NCBI GenBank assembly: GCA_021771915.1
Contig: JAETNY010000003.1
Coordinates: 1-64,000, forward strand
DNA length: 64,000 nt
Reading direction: 5' to 3'
Origin: Bacillota bacterium
Lineage (GTDB): Bacteria; Bacillota; Dehalobacteriia; UBA4068; UBA4997
A model generated the notes under the pieces. That model saw only the letters and a list, made by a program, of their open reading frames with translations, did not search any database and had not been told where the DNA came from. Numbering within the stretch: position 1 is the stretch's first letter; each line of letters begins with the position of its first letter. A program made the position numbers and the translations under genes. Positions 5,704 through 39,026 of the stretch are shown piece after piece.

Positions 5704-7248
5704 TTATGCTGCCAAACATTCTTCACAGCCGGGAGCCATCCCACCGCAAATGCGCATAAACACTGGCTTCTTTACTCTTTTATTTATTTCGTTTTTTCGT
5801 CGCAAACTGAATATGTTGTTGGATGTAAAAGCCATCAGTTTTTGCAGCTCTTTAATTCGTGTCTTGTCACCGCCAACGAAATTAACCAACTTTTCTTTTT
5901 CTGCCCGTAGCTTTTGTTCTTCCATAACAAGAGCGGCATTTTCTTTGTTGAATACAGTGGGTTCTAATACCCCTGTTGCCATTAGGTTTGTTAGAATCTG
6001 TTTTCTGTCGGTATTTCCTTCAATGCAGATATCTAATTCCTGAATACGCAGCAGTCGGTCTTTGTCATCCATCCCACGCAGTGTTCGCAGCAGCGGCTTC
6101 AATATCACTTGGTGACCGTAGGTCAGCTTATTCATCATGGTCAGAAAAGCCAGCTTGATGCTCTCATCGGAAATGTAGAGCATGGAGCATTCTTTTTTGT
6201 TTTCCAGGTGCTTTCCGCAAGTCCAGGCCACATAATTACCGCTTGGCTTATAATGCTGCCTGCGCTTAAAAGTAGTACCGCATTCACCACATTTGATTTT
6301 GCCGGAAAAACAATAACGGTTCTGATATCGATAGGTATCTGTGCCGTTGCCTTTCTCCATTGCTCTCTGGTCAAGCACCGCACGTACCTTTTCAAAATCC
6401 TCATGGCTAATAATCGGCTCATGATGGTTCTCGCAAAGGAAACGGTCACGCTCACCATAATTGATGTGGCGGTTAAAACTGCTGTCACTGTAGGTCTTTT
6501 GAAAAATCACATCACCTGTGTACTTTTCGTTGTTAAGAATGGCGTTCACAGTGCCCGCACTCCATTTACCGTTCTTTTTTGTCTTGATGCCACGGTCATT
6601 CAATTCCCTAGCTATCGCATGAGTGCCTTTACCTGCAAGGCAGGCTGCAAAAATCTCTTTTACAATCTCTGCCTGCTCCGGCACAATAACCATCGTACCG
6701 TTATCGTTTTCATATCCGTATGGTGGATATGAAATGATAAAGGTGCCGTTCTGAAAGCGTTTCTGTACCGACCATTTGTTGTTTTCGGAAATGGATACCG
6801 ATTCGCTTTCTGCCAGACTGCTCAAAATGGAAAGCATCAGTTCACTCTCCATTGAACCCGTGTTAATATTCTCCTTCTCGAAGAAAATGGAAATGCCCAG
6901 ATCTGTCAGTTTTCGTACCATCTCCAGACAATCCGTAGTGTTACGGGCAAATCGGCTGATGGACTTGGTAATAATAAATTCAATCTTACCGGCCTCACAG
7001 TCAGCAATCATGGAAAGAAGTCCGGCACGAACATCCTTTTTGGTACCCGTGATACCCTCATCATAATAAAGGCCTACATACTCCCATTCGTCATTGGCGC
7101 GGATGTGGCTTTCATAATGTGCCTTTTGTGCTTCAAGGCTGATAAGTTGTTCATCACTTGCCGTAGATACTCGGCAGTAGGCAGCAACCTTCAATTTTTT
7201 CTTCTCAGCCAGGGCTTCATTTGTCTCGATTTTTGTTATCTTTTTCAT
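5704..7248 (-). CDS. int: Large serine recombinase (prophage integrase)
   Basis: This 514-residue enzyme catalyses integration and excision. The resolvase catalytic domain (about residues 20-170) contains VAAYCRVSTASDEQ with the nucleophilic serine and ITKSISRFARN. The Recombinase domain follows (PPYGYENDNG and WSAGTVNAILNNEKYTGD). A zinc ribbon follows (CGECGTTFKRR and CGKHLENKKEC), then a coiled-coil-like segment. The ATG at 7248 is preceded by GAGGTGAG. Many relatives end in a longer tail, whereas this one finishes with an odd Cys/Gly-rich stretch (ICGGMAPGCEECLAA). That may mean the gene end is formed by flanking DNA. It is the only complete integrase in the window. Confidence 0.85.
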   Translation of the reverse strand: MKKITKIETNEALAEKKKLKVAAYCRVSTASDEQLISLEAQKAHYESHIRANDEWEYVGLYYDEGITGTKKDVRAGLLSMIADCEAGKIEFIITKSISRFARNTTDCLEMVRKLTDLGISIFFEKENINTGSMESELMLSILSSLAESESVSISENNKWSVQKRFQNGTFIISYPPYGYENDNGTMVIVPEQAEIVKEIFAACLAGKGTHAIARELNDRGIKTKKNGKWSAGTVNAILNNEKYTGDVIFQKTYSDSSFNRHINYGERDRFLCENHHEPIISHEDFEKVRAVLDQRAMEKGNGTDTYRYQNRYCFSGKIKCGECGTTFKRRQHYKPSGNYVAWTCGKHLENKKECSMLYISDESIKLAFLTMMNKLTYGHQVILKPLLRTLRGMDDKDRLLRIQELDICIEGNTDRKQILTNLMATGVLEPTVFNKENAALVMEEQKLRAEKEKLVNFVGGDKTRIKELQKLMAFTSNNIFSLRRKNEINKRVKKPVFMRICGGMAPGCEECLAA

Positions 7249-7310
7249 CAACTCACCTCGCTTCTTGGGCAGTGACATATTCCCGTACTATCGCAGAAAT
7301 AGCAAGTCAT

Positions 7311-22733: not shown

Positions 22734-24335
22734 CTAAATAAACAAAATGCCACGGTGGTCATAGGCGCTTTCCGTGACTTGGTTACCGCAGCGGATGGCT
22801 CTGTCAAGTGCCATGATAGTGGCTACCGCTCCGTCTATCTTTTCTGTAGATTTCTCTTTGTCCACCTTGATGTTTCCGGCTGGGTCTGTTCGGATGTAGA
22901 TGTTGTCCATCATCCAACGAAGAACCGGGTGTCCGCCGTGGGCAAGTTTCTGTTCCAAGGTCAGTTTCATCAGTTCCTTGGTAGGCGGTGACATATCCTT
23001 AAAGCCCTGTCCGAAAGGTACTACCGTAAATCCCATGCCTTCCAGGTTCTGTACCATCTGAACAGCACCCCAGCGGTCGAATGCAATCTCACGGATATTG
23101 AAACGCTCACCGAGTTTTTCAATGAACTGCTCAATATATCCATAATGGACTACATTGCCCTCCGTAGTCTGCAGATACCCCTGCCATTTCCAAACATCGT
23201 AGGGAACATGATCCCTTCGGACTCGCAGTTCCAGGGTTTCTTCCGGTATCCAGAAGTATGGAAGGATGCAGAACTTGTCCTATTCATCCAGTGGTGGGAA
23301 TACCAGAACGAATGCCGTGATATCTGTTGTACTGGAAAGGTCAAGTCCGCCGTAGCATACACGGCCTTCCAGGTCATCTTCACTCACTGCAAAAGAGCAT
23401 TTATCCCATTTCTCCATCGGCATCCAGCGAACTGCCTGTTTCACCCACTGATTAAGTCTCAGCTGTCTGAAGGAATTCTCCTCGCCGGGATTCTGCTTGG
23501 CAGAATCACAGGCTGCCTTTACCTTGTCAATGCCAACCGTAATGCCCAGGGATGGATTTGCTTTCTTCCATACCTTTGGATCAGTCCAGTCATCACTCTC
23601 ATCCGCTCCGTAGATAACGGGGTAAAAGGTAGGGTCGATCTTTCTTCCTTCCAGAATGTCCTTGGCTTTCTGATGTGTTTCATAGCAGATGGAATTGGTA
23701 TCCGTTCCTGCTGTTGTGATTAAGAAGTACAACGGCTGCATACGGGCATCACCCGAACCCTTGGTCATGACATCAAACAGCTTTCGGTTCGGCTGCGTAT
23801 GCAGCTCATCGAACACAACGCCGTGGATGTTAAAGCCGTGCTTACTGTAGGCTTCTGCGGAAAGTACCTGGTAGAAGCTGTTGGTCGGCATATAGATGAT
23901 TCGTTTCTGCGAGGCAAGAATCTTGACTCGCTTGGATAGTGCCGGACACATTCTAACCATGTCGGCGGCAACCTCAAACACGATGGATGCCTGCTGTCGG
24001 TCGGCCGCACAGCCATATACTTCCGCTCGTTCCTCTCCGTCACCGCAGGTAAGCAGAAGTGCCACCGCAGCCGCAAGTTCTGACTTGCCCTGTTTCTTTG
24101 GTATCTCGATATAGGCGGTATTGAATTGCCTGTATCCGTTTGGCTTGAGCGTTCCAAAAATGTCCCGTATGATCTGCTCCTGCCAGTCAATGAGTTCAAA
24201 TGGCTTTCCCGCCCAGGTGCCTTTGGTATGGCAAAGGCTCTCAATGAATGCCACAGCAAAGTCTGCGGCATCCGCATCATAGTGGGAATCCTTCGCTATG
24301 AACTTCGTAGATTTGTACTTTTTCAGTTTCCGCAA
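22734..24335 (-). pseudogene. terL: Terminase large subunit, interrupted by one in-frame stop
   Basis: The frame (TTG start at 24335, AGGAG upstream) encodes the packaging motor. The ATPase domain has YIEIPKKQGKSELAAAVALLL (Walker A variant) and FNIHGVVFDELHTQ (Walker B). The nuclease domain starts at CYGGLDLSSTTDITAFV. A TAG at 23280-23282 stops translation after residue 351. The same frame then continues DKFCILPYFWIPEE and AFDRWGAVQMVQNL to the real end at 22734. The truncated form would keep the ATPase but lose most of the nuclease. No frameshift is seen. Confidence 0.85.
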
Positions 24336-24445
24336 GTGCCGTCACTCCTTTCTTTGGCATAAAAATAGCCGCATCACTGCGACTGCCGTATACGAGGAAC
24401 AGCCCCTCACGGGGACCGTCCTGCTGAATCTTCAGTTCATAAAAA

Positions 24446-25883: not shown

Positions 25884-27734
25884 TTAATTTTCAGGAGGAT
25901 TCTGGGTATAGTACACAATGCCGGAAAGCACAAAGCAGACATTGGGAAGGGCTACGCCGTTGCCCCACATCTTATATTCCGCAGAATCGGAATGCGGGCT
26001 CTGCAGCCATTTGAAGACCTGCTTTTTCGTCTTCTGCTTGGAGGACTTGCCCTCAATCAGACGCCAGGTTTCAAAGATGTCCATCCACTTTGTAAGTTCC
26101 TCTTCGGACGGTACTTTTGTGCCAAGACCATCACACCACCAGTCAGGAAATCCCTGCAACCTTGCACACTCGGTCGGAGTAAGGCGGCGGACGATATACT
26201 CAAGGTCTGCGTCCATGTCGTTGACCACGGGAGGGTCTTTCCAGTCTGTTGCCACCAAGGTGTTTGCCAGTTCTTCCTCTGCAGATGTGAAGAAGGATGC
26301 CTTGCTGCTGGAAAAAGTCGGTGCTGCTACTGCACCGGAGCCTTTTGCCACCATCGTAGGCTGCGTTTCTTCCTTCACAGCAAATCCGTACTGTGCGTTT
26401 TTGCCCTGATTGAAGGCTGCCCTGTCGATGCCATAGGCAACGGCATGGCGGTCGATGGTATTTAAGGTAAAACTGACATCTTCATTGATCCCATCGCCCT
26501 GGGGACCGTTCTCGTCCTTTCTTCCAATCATGGAACCCTGCACGGAAACAACAGCAATGCCGCCCTGGTTGCAGTTTGGATTGCCACCGTTCTGGTCAAG
26601 ACATCTTGAAGTATCCGCCTCATAGAATCCGCTCCTGGGATTGTCTGAACGCATGGAGTTGCTGTCCTTGGCACAGATGCCATAGGCAACAGGAACGAAA
26701 ACAGTCTGGTCATTGTTGCAGGAAAGCGTAGCGGAAAGGTTCTCCTGGATGAGTGCGCCTTTCCCACCGCCTTCACAGCCGGAACGGATCTTCAGCGTTT
26801 TCGGTGTCTGCACCACAAAGGGCTGATTATTGCCGCCGGTTCCAAATGTAGAAAGCACAGTTTGTGCCACATCAAGGGGGCCTGTGTATCGGCTGTCCTG
26901 TGAGTGGTTCTCAAACACAAGCGGAGGATGATGGCTCTCGGCACGAAGGGTACATGTTACATCTTCCGTCACATCCATGCGATTGCCGCCCTGGTCATTT
27001 AAGCAGATTGTGCTGCCTGTCTCTCCAAGGCTCTCTTCAAAAGTTCCGGCAGTTCCTTTCCACGGGCAGAAGCCCTGCGGAGGATACCCCGACAAGCCTT
27101 CTGACTCAAATAGTATTTTTCCGGCGCATCCGCCACTAAAATCTGCGACAAGATAGATACGTCTTCTTCTCTGGGGTACTCCCCAATACTGAGCATCGAC
27201 TGTTCGCCAGGCAATATCGAATCCGTCTGCCACATCAATGTGTCCTGCTCCTGTCCATTTTCCTTTCGGAGGGACAGGGATAGAAACGGAATCGGCTTTG
27301 ACTGAACATACGGACTCAAGAACCGCTTTGAAGTCTGCACCCTTGTTTGAGGAGAAGGCACCGGGGACATTTTCCCAAACGATAAATCTTGGATATTTTC
27401 CATTGGTTGCGCACCTCATTTCCTTTACGATTCGGATGGCTTCATAGAAAAGATTGGAACGGCTACCATCCAAACCCGCTCGCTTGCCGGCCACAGACAT
27501 ATCCTGGCACGGACTTCCGAAAGTGATGATATCAACAGGAGGAAGGCTTGCTCCGTCCAGCTTACTTACATCACCCGTGTGTTTCATATTGGGAAAGCGC
27601 TTTGTGGTCACCCTGATTGGAAACGGCTCGACCTCCGATGCAAACACAGGCTCGATACCGCAAAGCACTCCGCCCAATGGAAAACCCCCGGAGCCGTCAA
27701 ACAGGCTGCCGAGGGTCAATCTGTCCTTATTCAT
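25884..27734 (-). CDS. DNA (cytosine-5) methyltransferase
   Basis: This 616-residue enzyme has the C5-methyltransferase motifs in order. They are GSLFDGSGGFPLGG (motif I), TFGSPCQDMSVAGKRAGLDG (motif IV with the catalytic Cys), WENVPGAFSSNKG (motif VI), VPQRRRRIYLVADF (motif VIII) and RRLTPTECARLQGFPDWW (motif IX/X). The segment between motifs VIII and IX is very long (about 300 residues, rich in Gly/Asn) and is the likely target-recognition region. It transfers a methyl group from SAM to cytosine in DNA. Together with the adenine-type methyltransferase and MetK next door it probably protects phage DNA from host restriction. Confidence 0.9.
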   Translation of the reverse strand: MNKDRLTLGSLFDGSGGFPLGGVLCGIEPVFASEVEPFPIRVTTKRFPNMKHTGDVSKLDGASLPPVDIITFGSPCQDMSVAGKRAGLDGSRSNLFYEAIRIVKEMRCATNGKYPRFIVWENVPGAFSSNKGADFKAVLESVCSVKADSVSIPVPPKGKWTGAGHIDVADGFDIAWRTVDAQYWGVPQRRRRIYLVADFSGGCAGKILFESEGLSGYPPQGFCPWKGTAGTFEESLGETGSTICLNDQGGNRMDVTEDVTCTLRAESHHPPLVFENHSQDSRYTGPLDVAQTVLSTFGTGGNNQPFVVQTPKTLKIRSGCEGGGKGALIQENLSATLSCNNDQTVFVPVAYGICAKDSNSMRSDNPRSGFYEADTSRCLDQNGGNPNCNQGGIAVVSVQGSMIGRKDENGPQGDGINEDVSFTLNTIDRHAVAYGIDRAAFNQGKNAQYGFAVKEETQPTMVAKGSGAVAAPTFSSSKASFFTSAEEELANTLVATDWKDPPVVNDMDADLEYIVRRLTPTECARLQGFPDWWCDGLGTKVPSEEELTKWMDIFETWRLIEGKSSKQKTKKQVFKWLQSPHSDSAEYKMWGNGVALPNVCFVLSGIVYYTQNPPEN

Positions 27735-28995
27735 CTTTGACCTCCACCTCTTTTACAAGGTCGGAGTACATAAATTTCTCTCCGTTTCGGATCACATATA
27801 CGCTGTCAGGGTCACCGCCATCTTCCACGAATCTGCGTAAGATAACAGATGCATACTTCTCATCCAGTTCCATCGTGTGGCAGATGCGGTTGGTCTGCTC
27901 ACATGCCATCAGGGTAGAACCGCTGCCGCCAAAGGTATCAATGACGATGGCATTTTCCTGACTGGAATTGCCAATGGGATATGCCAGAAGGTCAAGGGGC
28001 TTTGAAGTCGGATGATTCTTGTTTTTCTTCGGCTTGTCAAAATTCCAGATGGTAGTCTGGTTTCTTCCTGCGTTCTTGCTCCAGTAATGCTTGCCGTTCT
28101 GAAGGAAACCGTACAAGACGGGTTCATGCTGCCATTGGTAATCGGATCGTCCAAGCACCAGACTGTTTTTCACCCAGATGCAGCATCCGGCAAGATGGAA
28201 ACCTGCATCCACAAATGCCTTGCGGAAATTGAGTCCTTCCGTATCGGCATGGAACACATAAGCTGCACCGCCTTTTTCCAGGTTCGCCGCCATGTTCTGA
28301 AATGCCGAAAGCAGAAATTCATAAAACTTGTCATTTGCCATCTTATCGTTCTTGATGGAAAGTCCATCGGAACTTTCAAAGGCCACATTGTAAGGCGGGT
28401 CTGTTACAATGAGGTTGGCTTTCTTACCATCCATAAGAGCGGCTACATCTTCAGCGGATGCGGCATCACCGCACATAAGACGGTGCCTGCCGACCGTCCA
28501 GATATCCCCACGCTGTACAAAGGACGCCTTCTCAAGGGCGGCGGACAAATCGAAATCATCGTCTTCTGCCTCAGACTTATCATCTCCTGCGAAAAGGTCA
28601 GCAATCTCATCATCGTTAAAGCCTGTCAGCCCCACATCGAAGTCCATGCCCTGCAAGGCTTCAATCTCGATTCTCAAGAGTTCCTCATCCCATCCTGCAT
28701 CCTGGGCAAATCGGTTGTCCGCAATGATGTAGGCTTTCTTCTGTGCTTCGGTAAGGTAATCCACAAACACGCAAGGAACTTCCTCAATGCCTTCTTCCTT
28801 GGCAGCCATCACTCTGCCGTGTCCGGCAATGATGCCATAGTCACGGTCGATGATAACGGGATTTACAAAGCCGAACTCACGCAGGGAGGAACGCAGCTTT
28901 GTAATCTGTTCCGGGGAGTGGGTTCTCGCATTATTGATATATGGTACTAATTTGGAGAGCGGAACAAGCTGCATCTCCGTAGTTGTTTTTGCCAT
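27727..28995 (-). CDS. ParB-N/DNA N6-adenine or N4-cytosine methyltransferase fusion
   Basis: About 422 residues. The N-terminal 110 residues form a ParB-like nuclease/CTPase-fold domain (YGIIAGHGRVMAAKEEGIEEVP). A beta-class methyltransferase follows, with LIVTDPPYNVAF (DPPY) before IDTFGGSGSTLMACEQ (SAM-binding FGGSGST). The fusion is common in Firmicutes phages. The start at 28995 shares a TGATG with the end of metK, and the stop overlaps the cytosine methyltransferase start, so all three form one translational unit. DPPY favours adenine as target. Confidence 0.9.
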   Translation of the reverse strand: MAKTTTEMQLVPLSKLVPYINNARTHSPEQITKLRSSLREFGFVNPVIIDRDYGIIAGHGRVMAAKEEGIEEVPCVFVDYLTEAQKKAYIIADNRFAQDAGWDEELLRIEIEALQGMDFDVGLTGFNDDEIADLFAGDDKSEAEDDDFDLSAALEKASFVQRGDIWTVGRHRLMCGDAASAEDVAALMDGKKANLIVTDPPYNVAFESSDGLSIKNDKMANDKFYEFLLSAFQNMAANLEKGGAAYVFHADTEGLNFRKAFVDAGFHLAGCCIWVKNSLVLGRSDYQWQHEPVLYGFLQNGKHYWSKNAGRNQTTIWNFDKPKKNKNHPTSKPLDLLAYPIGNSSQENAIVIDTFGGSGSTLMACEQTNRICHTMELDEKYASVILRRFVEDGGDPDSVYVIRNGEKFMYSDLVKEVEVKDE

Positions 28996-29777
28996 CAGAA
29001 CAACCCCCATTCCGCAAATTTCTCAAATCCACCCAGGGAGTTGATGTACTCTCTTGCTTCTTCCACGATTTCAGAATAAGGCATGCCATCCACAGTATCA
29101 TCACCGATGGCACAGGAAAGCACCACAGGCTGGCCTGTTTTCTGCGCCTTCAAAAATGCGTGGATGTTTACGGATACATCCGCCTTGGATTGGTCTTTGC
29201 CATGCAGACCGCCGCCCGTGACGGACTGTGCCATATCAGAACCAAGCTTTCTGTTGGTTGCGCCGGTATCAACATCCGTGCCGCCAGTCCAGTCACCGAT
29301 AGGATTGATATCTGCCCCCGGGTACTTCTTTCGAAGTTCTTTCGTCTTTGCATTACTCTGGCAGATGATGAGTCTCTCGCCATCCATAATGTACTTGCCA
29401 TCACAGGGATAAGCTTTGTAGATATCCCTTGCAATTGCAGAGAGTTTCTTCTCCTCATCCGTCAAAGGCACACCTTTGAAGATGCCGTTATCTCCGCAGC
29501 GGAAACCATCCGCCTGATTATCCGCCAGATGTTTATCCTGGGGTTTGATGTCAGAAATAACAGCCATCTGTCCGGCAATGCGGTGGACGATTCTCTTAAT
29601 CTGTTCTGCAAAAATGTCTGCACTTGTTTCTACGATTACATAGCAGACACCGTGTCCGATGAGTACCTCAACGGCAATCTTCGGATCTTTTTCTGTTTTA
29701 TACACCAGGTCAACGATTGCACCTGCGATTCTGTCTGCCACTTTATCAGGGTGGCATGGATTTACTTTTTCAATCAT
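28995..29777 (-). CDS. metK: Phage S-adenosylmethionine synthetase, short form
   Basis: This 260-residue protein retains MetK hallmarks: EKVNPCHPDKVADRIAGAIVD (the HPDK box), VDTGATNRKLGSDMAQ, and TGGGLHGKDQSKADVSV (the phosphate-binding GGG and GKD loops). Bacterial MetK has about 390 residues, so one region is condensed. It makes SAM from methionine and ATP. The ORF is translationally linked to two SAM-dependent DNA methyltransferases, which suggests local supply of the methyl donor during infection. That link is inference; the gene order is seen. Confidence 0.85.
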   Translation of the reverse strand: MIEKVNPCHPDKVADRIAGAIVDLVYKTEKDPKIAVEVLIGHGVCYVIVETSADIFAEQIKRIVHRIAGQMAVISDIKPQDKHLADNQADGFRCGDNGIFKGVPLTDEEKKLSAIARDIYKAYPCDGKYIMDGERLIICQSNAKTKELRKKYPGADINPIGDWTGGTDVDTGATNRKLGSDMAQSVTGGGLHGKDQSKADVSVNIHAFLKAQKTGQPVVLSCAIGDDTVDGMPYSEIVEEAREYINSLGGFEKFAEWGLF

Positions 29778-29779
29778 AG

Positions 29780-30319
29780 TCAGTGTCCTTTCCGGGCGCG
29801 CAGCAAGCGCTCCATTACATCATCCTGCGGAGTTGCTCCCGTATACTCAATGGAGCAGTTCTCCTTTACAATCTGGTAAATCTGATACCAGGACTGGTTT
29901 GCCTGTTTTGTGAACTGCTGAAGCATGGATACATACGGACTCTGGCAAGCCGCCCCGGTCGTTGGGTGCTTTGCCAGGAAACCATATTCCGAAATTGCCT
30001 GCTCGCATTGAATCTGTCTTGCAACGCTCATGGCATACTGATTGATCAGCAGCGTATTCACATATTCGGTGCATCCGACCTTCTTGAGCCAGTTCCATGT
30101 TTCCTGGAAGATTTCTTCCGCACACAGATCTGTCCCACTTTTCTGCTTTGCTTTCATGTAGTCCTTCACAGGGGGCATATCCACACCCGTGAGTTCGGAC
30201 GCATCTGGCAGGTCGATGACGGTAGCAGTCTTGCCCACAGAGATTTTCTCTGTCAGAGCCTTGCGTTTTGGCCCGCTACCGGGTCTTGCACCGCCTCTCA
30301 TCGTTCCGTCTTTTGCCAC
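29780..30319 (-). CDS. terS: Terminase small subunit, P27 family
   Basis: This 179-residue protein starts MAKDGTMRGGARPGSGPKRKALTEK, the basic Gly/Arg-rich N-terminus of P27-type small terminases. It continues with a helical core (FQETWNWLKKVGCTEYVNTLLINQYA). It recognises the packaging site and recruits the large subunit. Unusually, metK, the methyltransferases and small genes separate it from terL by about 5.4 kb. Confidence 0.85.
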   Translation of the reverse strand: MAKDGTMRGGARPGSGPKRKALTEKISVGKTATVIDLPDASELTGVDMPPVKDYMKAKQKSGTDLCAEEIFQETWNWLKKVGCTEYVNTLLINQYAMSVARQIQCEQAISEYGFLAKHPTTGAACQSPYVSMLQQFTKQANQSWYQIYQIVKENCSIEYTGATPQDDVMERLLRARKGH

Positions 30320-30376
30320 TCGATTTTCACCTCCTCACGGGACCTTTCCTTATAGGCCCTTTGAATAGCAATTTTT

Positions 30377-30395
30377 GCGCGTGTGACCCTCGCGC
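30377..30395. other. G/C-rich inverted repeat in the HNH-terS gap (possible cos region)
   Basis: GCGCG and CGCGC are separated by 9 bp in the 122-bp gap between the HNH and terS genes. HNH-containing HK97-type phages usually cut cos near this position. No cos overhang can be read from sequence alone. Confidence 0.25.
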
Positions 30396-30441
30396 CGTTC
30401 CCCGGGATCTTAATGCGTAGAGATTTCTACCGCCCCTGGGG

Positions 30442-30810
30442 TCATGCATTGTGCCATCTGTCACCGCTCTTGGCGTGGATTCTTGCATGACAGGACTTGC
30501 AAAGTGCAATGAGATTCTCTCTGTCATGAGTGCCGCCTTGAGATAACGGCAGCTTGTGGTGGATCTCTTCGGTCGGTACATAGATACCATTCTTCAAGCA
30601 CTCCTCACACATCGGATGGCTTGCAGCATAGCTGTCCCTGATTCTTTTCCATGCTCGTCCATACCTGCGTTTGATGGCGAGGTCACGGTCATAGCGTTCG
30701 TATCGTTTGTTCTCTTCCTTCTGGTGTTCCTCGCAGAACCTGCCATCAGTCAGGTTGGGACAGCCGGGATGTGAACATGGTCGTTTCGGCCTTCTCGGCA
30801 CTGTCCTCAC
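30442..30810 (-). CDS. HNH endonuclease (packaging-associated)
   Basis: This 122-residue protein has a His-Cys zinc-type HNH domain: CEECLKNGIYVP, then EEIHHKLPLSQGGTHDRENLIALC and KSCHARIH. A second Cys/His set at the N-terminus (CSHPGCPNLTDGRFCEEH) may bind zinc. In cos-packaging HK97-type phages an HNH nuclease encoded next to terminase is needed for specific end cleavage. It is the first gene of the late transcript. Confidence 0.9.
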   Translation of the reverse strand: MRTVPRRPKRPCSHPGCPNLTDGRFCEEHQKEENKRYERYDRDLAIKRRYGRAWKRIRDSYAASHPMCEECLKNGIYVPTEEIHHKLPLSQGGTHDRENLIALCKSCHARIHAKSGDRWHNA

Positions 30811-30820
30811 TTCCTTCCGG

Positions 30821-30860
30821 GTAAAACAAAAGCCCCAGGGGATTTCTCCCTTGAGGCTTC
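30821..30860 (-). terminator. Intrinsic terminator at the head of the late operon
   Basis: Minus-strand AAGCCTCAAGGG and CCCCTGGGGCTT form a 12-bp stem with one mismatch, followed by TTTGTTTT. It lies about 20-30 nt downstream of the presumed late transcription start (-10 at 30888-30893) and upstream of the HNH start. Confidence 0.8.
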
Positions 30861-30887
30861 GTTCATCATACAGTTTTCTATACTACC

Positions 30888-30931
30888 ATTATACCTATAA
30901 GGACTGTGCCATTCTCTGCCAAAGTGTGCCA
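30888..30931 (-). promoter_or_regulatory. Late promoter with three 10-bp-phased TGGCA repeats
   Basis: A perfect -10 box TATAAT occupies 30893-30888 on the minus strand, but there is no -35 box (GAGAAT at the expected place). Three TGGCA repeats start at 30931, 30921 and 30911, with exactly 10-bp spacing. A further GGCACAG in the opposite orientation lies at 30943-30949. The layout suggests an activator- or antiterminator-dependent promoter. Confidence 0.6.
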
Positions 30932-30935
30932 ACTT

Positions 30936-31349
30936 TCAGTCCGGCACAGAAAAGTTCTGCAGTGCAGAAGAATGGGTACAATGCACGGTGCGTACAGACG
31001 CATTTAACAGCACACCGATTTCTTCCCACGAATGGTTATCCAGGTATCTATAACGGAGAAGAAGACGTTCATCCACATTGGACAGTTTCTCGATAGCATC
31101 TTCCATCTCTGCCTTGAGGTCAACAAGGGGGTCAATCTCATGATTGATTTTCTCCTGGTAGTCCATAATCTTAAACAGCACCTTTGTGAAAGGAGCATCC
31201 GTTGGTCTGTTGGGAGAAGGAATATGTTATCCGTAGCTGACTCCCTGGATGCGGGTGGAAAGGTCACGCAGGTTTTCCAGTTCCTCGATATGGGAGTTAA
31301 TTCTCTCGTTCAGGCGGTAGGCCTGTCTTAAATATTCCTTTGCGGTCAT
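30936..31349 (-). pseudogene. DUF1492-type late regulator, interrupted by one in-frame stop
   Basis: The frame from the ATG at 31349 encodes EYLRQAYRLNERINSHIEELENL, then a TAA (31227-31229, codon 41). It continues in the same frame through RPTDAPFTKVLFKIMDYQEK to a sigma-region-4-like HTH (YRYLDNHSWEEIGVLLNASVRTVH). DUF1492 proteins are encoded just before late genes in Firmicutes phages and resemble ArpU-type late activators. The second half could start at an internal codon and keep the HTH. Its end abuts the repeat-bearing late promoter, the likely target (inference). Confidence 0.75.
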
Positions 31350-31570
31350 TTTTTCAAAGCCTCCTCTCTCAGTCTTCGTATAAGGAATTCACTATCCATG
31401 ATTGTAAGTGCCGCATACCAGGAGGAACGAAAGAAACGCTCACACTCAGTCACGGTACTTTTGGCATTTACATTTGCGGGTGATTTTTTCAGTATCTTTA
31501 ACGCTGCCATATAGTCCTTGGCAGCTGTTGTAATAATGGCATTTGCAAGGCTTTCATAAGGGTCAGCCAT
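31346..31570 (-). CDS. Small phage protein of unknown function
   Basis: About 74 residues (MADPYESLANAIITTAAKDYMAALK), all-helical and Lys/Ala-rich. The ATG at 31570 has GGAGG 7 bp upstream, and the stop overlaps the next start (ATGA). It is often found between the helicase and the DUF1492 gene in related phages. Role unknown. Confidence 0.6.
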   Translation of the reverse strand: MADPYESLANAIITTAAKDYMAALKILKKSPANVNAKSTVTECERFFRSSWYAALTIMDSEFLIRRLREEALKK

Positions 31571-31575
31571 AAGCA

Positions 31576-32922
31576 TCACCTCCGAAGCCTTGCTTTGACA
31601 GCATCGATAAGGTCGGACTGTGTTTTCTCTTTTCTACGAAGTGCTTTCATCACATCTTTATCGATGGTGTCCTTTGCAATGATGTGGTGTATGACCACTG
31701 TTTCCGTCTGACCCTGGCGGTGGAGTCTGGCATTGGTCTGCTGATACAGTTCCAAAGACCAGGTAAGTCCAAACCACACAAGGGTGCTGCCACCGCTTTG
31801 CAGGTTCAGTCCATGTCCGGCACTCGCAGGATGTATCATGGCAACAGGTATCTCGCCTTTATTCCAGTCCTTGATATCCTGGGAGGTCTTTATCTCACGG
31901 ACCTTAAACCGTTCCTTGATTCTATGCAAATCGTGGTTATACCAGTAGGCAATCAGAACGGGTTTGCCGTTTGCACCTTCGATGAGGTCTTCCAAAGCAT
32001 CCAGTTTGCGGTCGTGGATCTTCACGATTTCCTTATCTTCGGTATAGACAGCACCGTTTGCCATCTGCAGAAGTTTCCCGGAAAGAGCCGCTGCATTTAC
32101 CGCATCGATTTCTTCCTCTTCCAGGGAAATGACCATCTCATCACGCATTTCCTCATAAAGACTTCTTTCTTTTTCAGAAAGCACCACCGGAACTTCGTTT
32201 ATCACACATTCAGGCATTTTCAGAAAATCTGCCGAATTCATGGAAATCGTAATATCCGAAATCAGCTGGTAGATAAGTTTCTCCGCTCCCGGCTTTGGCT
32301 TATAGGAAAAAATCATCTGCTGATTCCGCTTATCCGGCACAAAGAACATAATTCGATAGTTCGTTATGTACCGACCGAGCCTTTGCCCCATATCCAGGAT
32401 TCGAAATTCTGCCCACAGATCCATCAGCCCGTTACTGGATGGCGTCCCCGTAAGTCCCACCATCCTTTTTATCCTTGGTCTAACTTTCAGCAGGCTCTTG
32501 AATCGTTTGGCTGAGTAGGATTTGAATGAGGAAAGTTCATCAATGACCACCATATCGAAATCAAAGGGAATGCCGCTCTTTGAAATGAGCCAGTCCACAT
32601 TTTCTCTGTTAATGAGGTAGATGTGGGTGGGTCTGTTTAAGGCAGCTATCCTTTCAGCCTCTGTTCCGATGACCACCGAATAAGTAAGACCTTTTAAGTG
32701 ATCCCATTTTTCAATCTCCGCAGGCCATGTATCCCTTGCTACCCGAAGAGGTGCAATGACCAGAACGCTTTCCACTTCAAAACGGTTCAGCATCAGTTCA
32801 TAGATGGCAGTCAGGGTGCAGACACTTTTTCCAAGTCCCATTTCTAAAAGCACTGCCGCCACCGGATGTTCCAATATGAAGTTGGTCGCATAGGTCTGAT
32901 AATCATGGGGATGATATTGCAT
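31576..32922 (-). CDS. SNF2-type DEAD/DEAH-box helicase
   Basis: About 448 residues with helicase motifs in order: VAAVLLEMGLGKSVCTLTAI (motif I), FDMVVIDELSSFKS (motif II, DELS), GLTGTPSSNGLMDLW (motif III), HPASAGHGLNLQSGG and ARLHRQGQTETV (motif VI). It is an ATP-driven DNA translocase used in phage replication or recombination. ATG at 32922 has GGAGG upstream. The C-terminus overlaps the next gene's ribosome-binding site. Confidence 0.9.
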   Translation of the reverse strand: MQYHPHDYQTYATNFILEHPVAAVLLEMGLGKSVCTLTAIYELMLNRFEVESVLVIAPLRVARDTWPAEIEKWDHLKGLTYSVVIGTEAERIAALNRPTHIYLINRENVDWLISKSGIPFDFDMVVIDELSSFKSYSAKRFKSLLKVRPRIKRMVGLTGTPSSNGLMDLWAEFRILDMGQRLGRYITNYRIMFFVPDKRNQQMIFSYKPKPGAEKLIYQLISDITISMNSADFLKMPECVINEVPVVLSEKERSLYEEMRDEMVISLEEEEIDAVNAAALSGKLLQMANGAVYTEDKEIVKIHDRKLDALEDLIEGANGKPVLIAYWYNHDLHRIKERFKVREIKTSQDIKDWNKGEIPVAMIHPASAGHGLNLQSGGSTLVWFGLTWSLELYQQTNARLHRQGQTETVVIHHIIAKDTIDKDVMKALRRKEKTQSDLIDAVKARLRR

Positions 32923-33184
32923 CAATTACACCTCCTATCTGCTCTTTGGCATCAATCACATAGCAGGGAATACCAAGAGCGGTAATCTGTTTCATTCTTC
33001 GTATCTGTAATGGCCTCGGCTTTTTACCGGGAGCCTTTAATTCCACAAAGGCACACTTCCCAAAAGGTAGAAGCACCAGTCTGTCCGGCACACCGTCCAT
33101 GCCCGGACAAGTAAACTTCATGCAAAGCCCACCCACTTTCCTGACGGAGCGGACAAGGGCCTGCTCGACTTCTTTTTCACGCAT
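32903..33184 (-). CDS. VRR-NUC domain nuclease
   Basis: This 93-residue stand-alone VRR-NUC protein has the PD-(D/E)XK core GMDGVPDRLVLLPFGKCAFVELKAPGKKP, then RRMKQITALGIPCYVI. It is a small structure-specific nuclease, probably for branched DNA in replication or packaging. The ATG at 33184 has GGAGG 7 bp upstream. The gene overlaps the helicase start by 20 bp. Confidence 0.9.
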   Translation of the reverse strand: MREKEVEQALVRSVRKVGGLCMKFTCPGMDGVPDRLVLLPFGKCAFVELKAPGKKPRPLQIRRMKQITALGIPCYVIDAKEQIGGVIDAISSP

Positions 33185-33215
33185 ATTCCGCACCTCCATC
33201 ACGGCTTAATATTGG

Positions 33216-33318
33216 GTGGTGACACACATAGACGGGTATTTTCCATACTTTTCTATAGACTTGTTTTTTTAGGCTATATAGAAAAGTTAGGTAATATCTT
33301 GTCATAGTGTGTCACCAC
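33216..33318. repeat. Nested inverted repeats between primase and VRR-NUC genes
   Basis: The outer arms GTGGTGACACAC (33216-33227) and GTGTGTCACCAC (33307-33318) are perfect complements. The inner arms ACTTTTCTATAG (33247-33258) and CTATATAGAAAAGT (33274-33287) pair with a TA bulge. An A/T-rich centre with seven T's lies between. This 103-bp cruciform-capable, A/T-rich site next to the primase gene is a candidate replication origin. A structured mRNA segment is the alternative. Confidence 0.55.
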
Positions 33319-33332
33319 GGGGTTCAGGACTC

Positions 33333-35579
33333 CTAGTCAAATTCTGTCTTCAGTCTTACACCTTTGACATATCTGCCTTTTCTGTCCCTGTACCGTTCAA
33401 AGCCGAAGGATTCCAGCGCAGTATAGAAATCTGCGGAACTGCGAACGAACTCACCCACCTGCAGGCAGAAGGAACGGTACTCGTTGTAAAACTCCCCGGA
33501 TTTGGCAACATAGGACTTATCGATCTCGCAGCGTTCATTTAAAAACGCACTCATCCAGTCATTGTTTTCCTTATAGGCATCGATAGCCTCCTGGACTTTC
33601 TGCGGGGCGGTGATATGGAAGTCATCGGCAATGACCTTCTTTGCGCCCTCAATCACCCAGGACAAAATCGCACCGCCGGCCTTCTCAAACAGATAGTCTG
33701 CATAGTTCTTGATATCCGAACTGCCCTCGATCTTGGCACCGAAGGGAATCACAATGAGTCTTCGCCAGGTACCCTTATCGATTGCACCGACCTTTGGCAG
33801 GTGATTGGTATAAAGCACCAGCGTATGGGTAGGAACATAGGAGAATGGATCTTTGTATTTCTTCTCTGCATAGATTTCATCCGTGGAGCAAAGCTGCTTA
33901 ATATTGGATGTGTTGAGTCTCATGCCTTCTTCCAGCTCGGCAGCAATGAGCAGTCTTTTCCCCTTTGCCTCGGCAAGTTCCGGCTTTACATTTCTGCGAC
34001 ATCCTACCGTCAGCATATCGGCAGAGATATTGCCACTATAGGTGCCAAGGACTCTCGACACCACATTCCAGAAGGTAGACTTGCCGTTTCTGCCTTCGCC
34101 ATAGGCAATGATAAGTGCCTCCACATAGACCTTGCCCACTGCGGAAAGGCCTACGATTTTCTGCACATAGTCGATAAGGGCAGCATCGTTCTGGAAGAAA
34201 GTGTTCAGAGCATCCTGCCAGATATCCGCTCCGTCTTTTCCGGGGTCAACAGCGGTCTGCTTGGTAATGAAGTCTTCCGGGTCATGGTCACGCAGACTGC
34301 GGATGCCCTTGCGAAGGTCTATCGTACCGGACGGGCAGTTCAGCAGAAATTCATCCGCATCCAGAAACTTTTGCTCAATCTCAAGCATCGGTCTTGCCTC
34401 TTTTAAAGCAGATGCGATGTATTTGGAGTCACGACGCTTGATAGCATACTTCTTATAAGTCAGTGCATTCTCATACATTTCGAAGGAATGTGCCTGCTGA
34501 CGGTTGAAGGCATTTGCCGCCTTCTTCGGTCCCATTGCTACAAGAATCTCCATTGCACCGTTCTTGTTCATCTCATCCATTGCTTTCTTGATCTCTGCTT
34601 CAGCCTCTTCCAGCTGACGCTCCGTCAGTTCCTGGGATATACCCTGGGACTTCGGTGCGGTTTCTTCCCAAAAGCTGCCGTTATAAACCATGTAATCCGT
34701 AGCAGGCGAAAAGCGAAGTTTCCCTTTGTACTCTCTTGCCAGTACCGTAGCCTGTCCCACATCCGAGAAGTCCTCCGGCTTTAACACGCAGTCGGAGTTA
34801 TAGACCTTCGGGTCGATATAGCCATCCTGCCCGGATACCTTGGTGCCGAACTTGGTGGCGGAGTGCCAGATCTTGTCCAGTTCGGAATCAGCCAGAGGCG
34901 GATTGCACTTTTCCGCTGTTTTCATGAACAGGGCATGGGCCTCATCTGTTGCCCCATATCTCTTGATGAGTTTTCCTGCGATATGGCTCATAGTACTGTT
35001 TCTGCTGCCTTCGCTGATTTCTTCCGTACCGGCGTCAAAGTCTGCGAACTCATCGCGGTCAATGAAGTCAGCCACATTACTTGCCCCGTCATATACTTCA
35101 ATGTCCGGTGAATCGGTGCCGTATAGGAAACGAGCCTCACCCAGGGCATCCGCATCAAAATGCGGGAAGAACTCCTGGATGCGTTTCTTCAGTTCCGCAT
35201 AGGATTTTCCATCTGTCATGGTCGGGATAGGGAAATACACATGGAACTTTGGTCTTGCCGCCTTGCCGTTTTTGACCTTCATGTTGTTGCGACTATAGCT
35301 GACAAGTAAGGAGACATCCGGGAATGCCATCACCACATCCAGGGGATAGATCCAGTCTTTCGAATCATCGGAGTGGTCATTGTCACAGTCCATCGGAAGG
35401 ACATCCGTTTCGAGGAAATTGTCATTGCTGCGGTAGTTGTTCTTATATGCGGCACACACATGATCCCGCTTGATGGCAGCCACGAAAGATGCCGAATCCG
35501 TAATATGAGCCTTATTGGGATATACGCAGTTGGAACTGTCACCGCAGCAGTTTGCGGTATAAAGGGTAAAATCAATCAT
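33333..35579 (-). CDS. Phage/plasmid primase, P4 family (primase-helicase)
   Basis: This 748-residue protein has an archaeo-eukaryotic-type primase N-half (LETDVLPMDCDNDHSDDSKDWI, with a DxD-like catalytic set), a D5-N linker domain, and a superfamily 3 helicase (IIAYGEGRNGKSTFWNVV Walker A, KGKRLLIAAELEEGMRLN, YTNHLPKVGAIDKGTWRR). It primes and unwinds at the phage origin. I chose the ATG at 35579, with AAGGAGG upstream, overlapping the previous stop by 8 bp. Confidence 0.9.
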   Translation of the reverse strand: MIDFTLYTANCCGDSSNCVYPNKAHITDSASFVAAIKRDHVCAAYKNNYRSNDNFLETDVLPMDCDNDHSDDSKDWIYPLDVVMAFPDVSLLVSYSRNNMKVKNGKAARPKFHVYFPIPTMTDGKSYAELKKRIQEFFPHFDADALGEARFLYGTDSPDIEVYDGASNVADFIDRDEFADFDAGTEEISEGSRNSTMSHIAGKLIKRYGATDEAHALFMKTAEKCNPPLADSELDKIWHSATKFGTKVSGQDGYIDPKVYNSDCVLKPEDFSDVGQATVLAREYKGKLRFSPATDYMVYNGSFWEETAPKSQGISQELTERQLEEAEAEIKKAMDEMNKNGAMEILVAMGPKKAANAFNRQQAHSFEMYENALTYKKYAIKRRDSKYIASALKEARPMLEIEQKFLDADEFLLNCPSGTIDLRKGIRSLRDHDPEDFITKQTAVDPGKDGADIWQDALNTFFQNDAALIDYVQKIVGLSAVGKVYVEALIIAYGEGRNGKSTFWNVVSRVLGTYSGNISADMLTVGCRRNVKPELAEAKGKRLLIAAELEEGMRLNTSNIKQLCSTDEIYAEKKYKDPFSYVPTHTLVLYTNHLPKVGAIDKGTWRRLIVIPFGAKIEGSSDIKNYADYLFEKAGGAILSWVIEGAKKVIADDFHITAPQKVQEAIDAYKENNDWMSAFLNERCEIDKSYVAKSGEFYNEYRSFCLQVGEFVRSSADFYTALESFGFERYRDRKGRYVKGVRLKTEFD

Positions 35580-36848: not shown

Positions 36849-38777
36849 TCAGTCTTTTTTATAAAAATCACATTCGTATCCGTCAGCACGAAGAAGCAGT
36901 CCCTTCGCCCAGGGCGGTGTTCTGCCCATCTGCTCACAGACTGCACTAAGACTCATGCGCCTGTCCGCTTCGATGATCAGTTCGTCATGTACATGTGCAA
37001 CAATACTGCAGTTGCGGAGTGTCTGCATGGCATACATGAGAATATCCCTTGCGATTGCCTGGATAGCATTCTCACAAAACTTCGGGCCATAGCTTTCAAG
37101 ACGCTCCCACTTTTTCGTAGCACCCACGCCTTCATAGGTCACCGATTCACTGCCAAACTGATTAATTCCCATGCGTGGTTTCACATAGGCAAGCCGTCTG
37201 TCGGAAGGAAGTCTCATGAAAAGGAATCCACTCTCATAGGTAAACTTAAGTCCTGCCACTTCAGTCGGAATATGTTCTCGCACCGTAGTCTTCACCGCTC
37301 TGTCGATATCCCACCACAGAGCCGTAATCATTGGATTTGCATTTCTCCATGCGTTCACCAGTGGCTGAAGTTCCTCTTCGGTAATTCCCATCTCCAGAGC
37401 GCCCATACTTTTGAGCGCACCGACCGAACCGCCGTAACCGAGAGCTAGTTCCGCAATCTTGCCCTTCTAGCGGAGATGACCGTTGATTCCATGCTTTTCT
37501 ACCGGAACACCAAACATCTGCGATGCCGAACTGCAGTAAATGTCCTTGCCATCGGCGAATACCTGCATTCTCCATTTCTCACCTGCAAGCCAGGCAAGGA
37601 CTCTCGCTTCGATTGCAGAGAAGTCTGCTACGATAAATTTCCTGCCATCCTGGGGAACGAATGCTGTACGGATCAGTTGCGACAGCGTATCCGGGATATC
37701 GTCATACAGAAGTTCCAGGGCATCGTAGTTTCCGCTTCGGACAAGTGCCCTGGCATCTGCAAGGTCTGACATATGGTTCTGCGGAAGATTCTGCAGCTGG
37801 ATGATGCGTCCGGCAAATCGGCCGGTTCGGTTGGCACCGTAATACTGGAACATTCCTCTTGCTCTGGAATCCTTGCACACCGCTGTCTGCATAGCGGTGT
37901 ATTTCTTCACACTGCTCTTGGCAAGCTGCTGACGGAGTGAAAGAACATCCGCCAGATGCTTTGGTGCAGTCTTGAGTGTTTCTGCCACAGCCTTCTTGCC
38001 GAGAGTATCCATTTCCAGTCCGTTATCCGAAAGCCACCCTTTCATCTGTGCTACGGAGTTGGGATTGTCAAGGTCGGTCAGATTTTGAATCTGCTGCGTG
38101 AGGTTTTTGCAGCTGATGCTGTCGATAGCAATAGCCTGCTCCACAAGCGTCATATCCAATCCGATGCCGCGGTCATTGATTTCCTGATCAAGATGGTATT
38201 CATCCCAAATGAAATCAGGAACAGGGAAACGGGACAGCTTCTTCTGGATGCTCATCTCGGTTTCCACATCACGCAGGTTATATGCCTTGAACTGCTCCCA
38301 CTTTTCCATATCGTGCTGCGGAAGATTCCTGGTTCTGCCTCCATTGGTCTTGGTAGGGGCGCAGGGAACACAGAAGTATTTGATGAGATTTTTTCCCTCG
38401 GTCAGTTTCTGCTTCTCCAGTCCCAAAACTGCACCCACTCCTTCCAGGGACAATGGCAAACCGAGTGTTGCCGACCACACCATCGTGCAGTGCCAGCTGT
38501 CAGGAGAAAGCGAGGTATCAAGATAATTCGACAGGCACACCCGTTCAAACTGTGCGTTGAATGCCCACTTGATTACGGATTCATCCGACAAGGCATCTAC
38601 AATCTCCGCAGGAATCTTCTCGGCGCAGGCAAGATCTATGACCTGAACTGCTCCGCCATCCACACTGTAACCAAACAGAAGGATATCGAAGTCAGGACTC
38701 TCGGCATATTTATAAACTCCGGCTTTCTGCAGATTCACGCTGGAGTATGTTTCGATATCAATGCTTAAATACTGCAT
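36849..38777 (-). pseudogene. Phage DNA polymerase A, interrupted by one in-frame stop
   Basis: A 643-codon frame encodes a family A polymerase with a 3'-5' exonuclease domain (LSIDIETYSSVNLQKAGVYKY) and a palm/fingers domain. Motif A is KFIVADFSAIEARVLAWLAGE. Motif B is KGKIAELALGYGGSVGALK, and motif C is IVAHVHDELIIEAD. A TAG at 37467-37469 (codon 437) sits immediately before the motif B lysine, where relatives have Gln. The truncated product would lack motifs B and C and be inactive. The rest of the frame is intact, so this is a single substitution. Confidence 0.9.
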
Positions 38778-38834
38778 AGCTGCTCCTTTCTATGACAAAG
38801 GCGGCAGAAGAATATCCTCCGCCGCCCGTCATCT

Positions 38835-39026
38835 TTACTCCGTTACATCATCCTCATGTGCAGCCTTTTTCTCTTTGTGTTTTGTAATAAAAGCTTTTGC
38901 CTTCTTGACCACAAATCTGAAAAATTCGCACACTGCCCACACGATACCATTGATGGCAAGACCGTAGATCAGGCAGAAAAGGACTATCACATCGACTTGT
39001 TTCATAAATTCATATACTTCGTTCAT
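38835..39026 (-). CDS. Small single-span membrane protein
   Basis: About 63 residues. One hydrophobic helix (VIVLFCLIYGLAINGIVWAV) is followed by a basic, then acidic tail (FITKHKEKKAAHEDDVTE). GAGGTG precedes the ATG at 39026. It lies between polymerase A and DUF2815. Function unknown; superinfection exclusion or membrane association of replication are guesses. Confidence 0.55.
   Translation of the reverse strand: MNEVYEFMKQVDVIVLFCLIYGLAINGIVWAVCEFFRFVVKKAKAFITKHKEKKAAHEDDVTE

Follow-up and report, generated by a model that had tools for sequence, protein, structure and literature searches.

The 64,000-nucleotide stretch analysed here (the window; positions 1 to 64,000 of contig JAETNY010000003.1, assembly GCA_021771915.1, from a Bacillota bacterium) carries a site which, as judged from its sequence, is the late promoter of an LtrB-type (DUF1492) prophage; it lies on the minus strand, with the DUF1492 gene on one side and the HNH gene on the other. 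The promoter elements mark the boundary between the early and the late prophage genes, and the conserved terminator in the leader behind them suggests, by analogy with Q or AlpA, that Ltr proteins may antiterminate late transcription as well as activate it. An earlier interpretation of the letters alone (the sequence-only reading) had proposed a lambda-like late switch at this place, with the DUF1492 product or a "sigma-like" protein as its activator or antiterminator. The late promoters of the Ltr superfamily, including those of the LtrB family, were reportedly treated by Quiles-Puchalt in 2013. DUF1492 corresponds to LtrB, a family of regulators of late transcription (PMC5601072), and Ltr proteins are described as activators binding direct repeats upstream of the promoter, ahead of terS (PMC13123087, PMC5601072). 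The activator half of the proposal is therefore not new, and promoter and operator are of a known kind. The features of the site and of the adjoining genes are the following.

30936-31349, minus strand: DUF1492/LtrB-type late regulator gene (PHROG_36), interrupted by an in-frame TAA at 31229-31227
30927-30931, minus strand: operator repeat 1, TGGCA (TTGGCACA), at about -50
30917-30921, minus strand: operator repeat 2, TGGCA (TTGGCAGA), at about -40
30907-30911, minus strand: operator repeat 3, TGGCA (ATGGCACA), at about -30, the usual place of sigma4/-35 contacts
30888-30893, minus strand: -10 element TATAAT, without a -35 box
30881, minus strand: predicted transcription start (+1), 7 nucleotides downstream of the -10 element
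30865-30870, minus strand: -10-like element TATGAT at +12 to +17, candidate sigma-dependent pause element
30823-30860, minus strand: intrinsic terminator, consisting of the GC-rich hairpin GAAGCCTCAAGGGAGAAATCCCCTGGGGCTTT (30860-30829) and a U-tract
30442-30810, minus strand: HNH endonuclease, first late gene (Pfam HNH, PF01844, 1.2e-13)
29780-30319, minus strand: terminase small subunit TerS (Terminase_4)
22752-24338, minus strand: reading frame of the terminase large subunit TerL, with one in-frame TAG

The TATAAT hexamer without a -35 partner and the three TGGCA words starting exactly 10 bp apart (at 30931, 30921, and 30911) were found as the sequence-only reading had described them. The hexamer at the 17-bp spacing from TATAAT reads GAGAAT (2/6 matches), and a consensus scan detected no sigma-70 promoter there. 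The window contains a single TGGCA triple with this exact spacing of 10 bp as compared to none in 100 dinucleotide shuffles, and its 26-base version has a single occurrence in the 2.3-Mb genome. In most relatives, the -10 element takes the extended form TGnTATnnT. The inverted GGCACAG previously regarded as a further operator half is indeed present on the plus strand (30943-30949), but its role as operator was rejected: it is probably coding sequence, because the conserved "...VPD" terminus of DUF1492 is encoded there and the bases vary among the relatives (e.g., GTTCCGGATTAA in L003).

A search for related loci by the HNH protein, DUF1492 alignments, and the repeat pattern itself yielded several hundred loci, which were collapsed to 239; the pattern-derived loci (L326-L402) are excluded from the unbiased statistics. 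A triplet of period 10 with at least 5/6 bases identical in the three copies is present in 106 of the 239 loci, with 0-2 at other periods and 0-1 in shuffles, and in 60 of 117 loci of the non-redundant set without the pattern-fetched ones, where shuffles give about 3 and other periods 0-6. Conservation of the phasing in relatives, on which the sequence-only reading had staked its case, is thus observed, and it extends to the terminator. The layout is kept in gut and dairy phages alike, while the repeat word itself varies by phage (TTGGCAC, TTGGCAGT, ATGTCC, ATAAGCAC, TTTGCAACA, ATGAGAGT, AAGACAC, TTACAGT, TGTCACT, and TGATACC). Five loci (L045, L059, L066, L070, and L076) contain a second type of regulator with the helix SAYRRKNRAL or SAYKKKNRAL, which in L045 still belongs to PHROG_36; they share the leader terminator and show another layout, TGTCC plus an inverted GGAC.

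The variation of the repeat word follows the regulator. The DUF1492 protein of the window scores 25.3 bits, which is over the cut-off, also matches Sigma70_r4, and is assigned to PHROG_36 (1.9e-23) when read through its stop as X; the same PHROG also contains RinA. Its C-terminus is a sigma-region-4-like helix-turn-helix (HTH) domain with the helix NASVRTVHCTH, and sigma region 4 is among the best solved structures found by sequence for this domain. The DUF1492 and "sigma-like" proteins, previously considered as two, are therefore one and the same. An intact relative modelled with AlphaFold (pLDDT 89) has two long helices ahead of the HTH. No Q homologue was found among the regulator matches, which comprise DUF1492, sigma region 4, PHROG_36, and PHROG_248, in agreement with the earlier statement that DUF1492 is no homologue of Q. 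Across the aligned regulators, the repeat word tracks 11 residues of the recognition helix, even between otherwise diverged proteins: RTVHRIH goes with TTGGCAC, RTVRRWH with ATGTCC, and QHIHRMH with ATGAGAGT, further pairs being listed in the helix-to-word table, and the window helix reads RTVHCTH as compared to RTVHRIH in the TTGGCAC-type relatives. Eight pairs of regulators with less than 35% N-terminal identity and 9-11 matches over the 11 helix positions share 7.1 of 10 word letters, compared to 3.7 for different helices, whereas pairs with more than 60% N-terminal identity and 0-3 helix matches share merely 4.2. A partial Mantel correlation of word and helix at constant N-terminus amounts to 0.19, with a maximum of 0.086 in 300 permutations. 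These comparisons indicate that the C-terminus of LtrB (DUF1492) sets the repeat specificity.

The strong terminator anticipated 20-30 nucleotides into the transcript is likewise present. Its stem begins at +22 from the predicted start, the hairpin region folds over 71 nucleotides with -24.8 kcal/mol (z = -3.8), and the predicted terminated RNA is about 56-58 nucleotides long; no known RNA family was detected in the leader at E ≤ 1 across positions 28000-34000. As the sequence-only reading had stated, the late operon from HNH and terminase onward lies behind the terminator (Pfam HNH and Terminase_4), and the hairpin precedes every late gene. Among the relatives, 111 non-redundant loci show the triple clearly; a strict finder recovered a terminator within 170 nucleotides in 81 of them and in 4 of 111 shuffled ones, while by eye nearly all aligned loci show a leader terminator. 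Terminators follow 133 of 211 regulator genes, but only 33 of 617 other open reading frames of the same loci. The stem starts at +21 (interquartile range 19-22), compensatory changes on both sides keep the pairing in six of nine consensus pairs, and the U-tract beside the stem is nearly invariant. Outside the clostridial DUF1492 phages, studied phages with other Ltr families share the feature: in phi11 (with RinA) and its relatives, the Sfi21-type phages, and many TP901-1-like phages, a terminator separates the late promoter from the first late gene, and one is visible ahead of the next gene in phi13 (with Ltr); the respective positions are approximately 1340-1527 in L410 (phi11), 1028-1143 in L588 (phi13), and 2988-3085 in L408 (Sfi21). 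Four leaders (L283, L293, L301, and L311) contain an added small hairpin (e.g., GCTGCACGCGCAGC) between promoter and terminator, with the terminator shifted about 20 nucleotides downstream.

A TATAAT-like hexamer with A2 and T6 kept is found between start and hairpin in 73 of 94 leaders, as compared to 28 in shuffles. If only leaders differing by more than 40% are counted, 13 of 16 contain the element, with 6.6 ± 1.7 expected, and TATAAT comes first among its 20 permutations.

These comparisons give good support to the operator, to its putative reader, and to the terminator. With a confidence somewhat above even, we favor the reading that at the LtrB (DUF1492) late promoter the regulator both recruits the polymerase and helps it through the terminator in the leader. 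DUF1492 monomers would align on one face of the DNA via their sigma-region-4-like HTH, stand in for the missing -35 contact, and thereby recruit RNA polymerase. Without the regulator, transcription starting at the late promoter or leaking from the early operon would stop as an RNA of about 57 nucleotides; with it, the polymerase would probably pause at the -10-like element, take up the regulator, and read through the terminator in the manner of Q or AlpA. The antitermination step is proposed because the terminator keeps a fixed position, the leader carries a -10-like element, and AlpA and GafYZ offer precedents. A further reading, to which slightly less than even weight is given, is that such regulators load at late promoters with terminator-bearing leaders and that their specificity is readable via a simple code from helix to 6-mer.

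Several points weigh against antitermination by LtrB. Ltr proteins have been published as activators only (PMC13123087). The terminator of TP901-1-like phages is weaker or more distal, and the finder misses many of them. The test for the -10-like element is modest, since the leaders share descent and the 94 collapse to 16. In the fold search with DUF1492, the matches listed are sigma-4 domains, HTH proteins of other kinds, and generic coiled coils, and the AlpA/Q21 fold is not among them. Finally, start, pause, and read-through are inferred for these phages from sequence features.

The main rival explanation is a regulator that only activates initiation. The terminator would then close the early operon, which ends with the regulator gene, and late initiation would be strong enough to leak through. 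We consider this explanation less likely than not. It agrees with the description of Ltr proteins as activators on repeats upstream of the start, with the position of the terminator at the early/late boundary, and with the weak or distant terminator of the TP901-1-like phages. However, an insulator would be better placed upstream of the late promoter, whereas the terminator lies downstream of it at a near-constant +21; most leaders contain a -10-like element between start and hairpin; and a strong hairpin with a U-tract at this place would cost late expression unless it is overcome. The reporter with which others tested the Ltr promoter of phi13 extended from 200 bp before the start to 50 bp after it, and by our own count it ends near the end of the hairpin; therefore, it may not separate activation from antitermination. 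It is improbable that the hairpin is no terminator at all and serves as a 5' stabilizer or processing signal of the late mRNA. Stem-loops at 5' ends do stabilize mRNAs in Firmicutes, and the leader hairpin of L318 (Streptococcus gallinaceus) is very long, near-perfect, and devoid of a U-tract, but a stabilizer needs no U-tract, and this tract is nearly invariant at the stem in the relatives. An assignment of repeats and hairpin to a DNA packaging (cos) site, which such phages have close to HNH/terS, is very improbable, despite the adjoining HNH and TerS packaging genes and the dyad symmetry and repeats annotated for the cos of Sfi21, as the repeat word tracks the regulator HTH, phi11 has the same layout without an HNH gene at that place, and the annotated Sfi21 cos lies elsewhere, past HNH and immediately ahead of terS, hence not in the interval between regulator and HNH, for which reason the hairpin was rejected as cos.

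The proposed combination of activation and antitermination by LtrB can be compared with several known systems. Within the Ltr superfamily, the window regulator belongs to the same protein family (PHROG_36, with RinA), but the operators reported so far have imperfect repeats, four in number, for TP901-1 Alt and repeats of 18 bp for phi13, whereas here three 6-bp words stand at exactly 10 bp, the word follows the helix, and the local regulator is broken. The arrangement resembles that of lambdoid Q (pR'/QBE/tR') in that the promoter contains a site for a protein, the leader has a -10-like element, and a terminator precedes the late genes; it differs in that the protein is sigma-4-like rather than a Q homologue, in that the operator is placed at -50 to -25, which is farther upstream, seemingly in place of the -35 box, and in that antitermination is proposed by analogy. 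AlpA of Pseudomonas aeruginosa is an antiterminator rather than an activator (PMC7969949), which has a 6-bp promoter site with a terminator downstream, contacts GGGACG with residues including K138-S139-T140 and H142, and loads at a sigma-dependent pause requiring a -10-like element (PMC9371919). It shares with the LtrB systems a C-terminal HTH that reads a promoter word of 6 bp and, downstream, an intrinsic terminator, but it acts at a single site around -25 to -20, and its promoter has a -35 box. The K-S-T and H contacts on GGGACG have a counterpart in the DUF1492 regulators with KS-(T/A/G)-(V/T)-H helices (L280, L318, and L165), all three of which have GGGAC in the promoter region as compared to 14 of 239 loci overall; it occurs in two or three phased repeats in two of the three loci, a pattern noticed post hoc and in a small number. 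The late-type cluster of the Caulobacter gene transfer agent is under both activation and antitermination by GafYZ (PMC11150451), but this system requires two proteins plus IHF, and its terminator follows the first gene. The literature searched contains no mention of the leader terminator, of Ltr antitermination, or of the helix-to-word table, although the original Ltr and RinA papers were outside its scope and may hold parts of these; likewise, the main text of a survey of premature terminators does not mention phages.

A terminator at a fixed place behind the promoters of several regulator families makes antitermination directly testable. The helix-to-word table provides dozens of natural regulator/operator pairs, from which the late promoter of an uncultured phage should be predictable from its regulator, and orthogonal promoter pairs could be built for laboratory strains.

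The prophage of the window is probably in decay, with the cis site still intact. The DUF1492 gene assumed by the sequence-only reading to supply the switch is broken, and the window copy is therefore probably a relic and no working switch, while intact copies of the regulator are present in the relatives. A recoding of TAA instead of decay was rejected, since TerL contains a TAG and the DNA polymerase region (36855-38906, minus strand) has four stops, namely a TGA, two TAG, and a TAA. A second DUF1492 protein over the cut-off was not found in the same genome; a DUF1492-like protein below the cut-off is encoded elsewhere in it (L582; G000 C23 41591-41842).

The gene order around the late switch comprises helicase, polymerase, primase-type, and antirepressor genes upstream, and HNH, TerS, TerL, portal, head, and tail genes downstream. 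The prophage integrase, which also matches DNA invertases, is located at 5704-7278. Three minus-strand genes (28995-29777, 27727-29010, and 25884-27734) lie between terS and terL; one product has the N-terminal domain of S-adenosylmethionine synthetase, and the other two are DNA methyltransferases.
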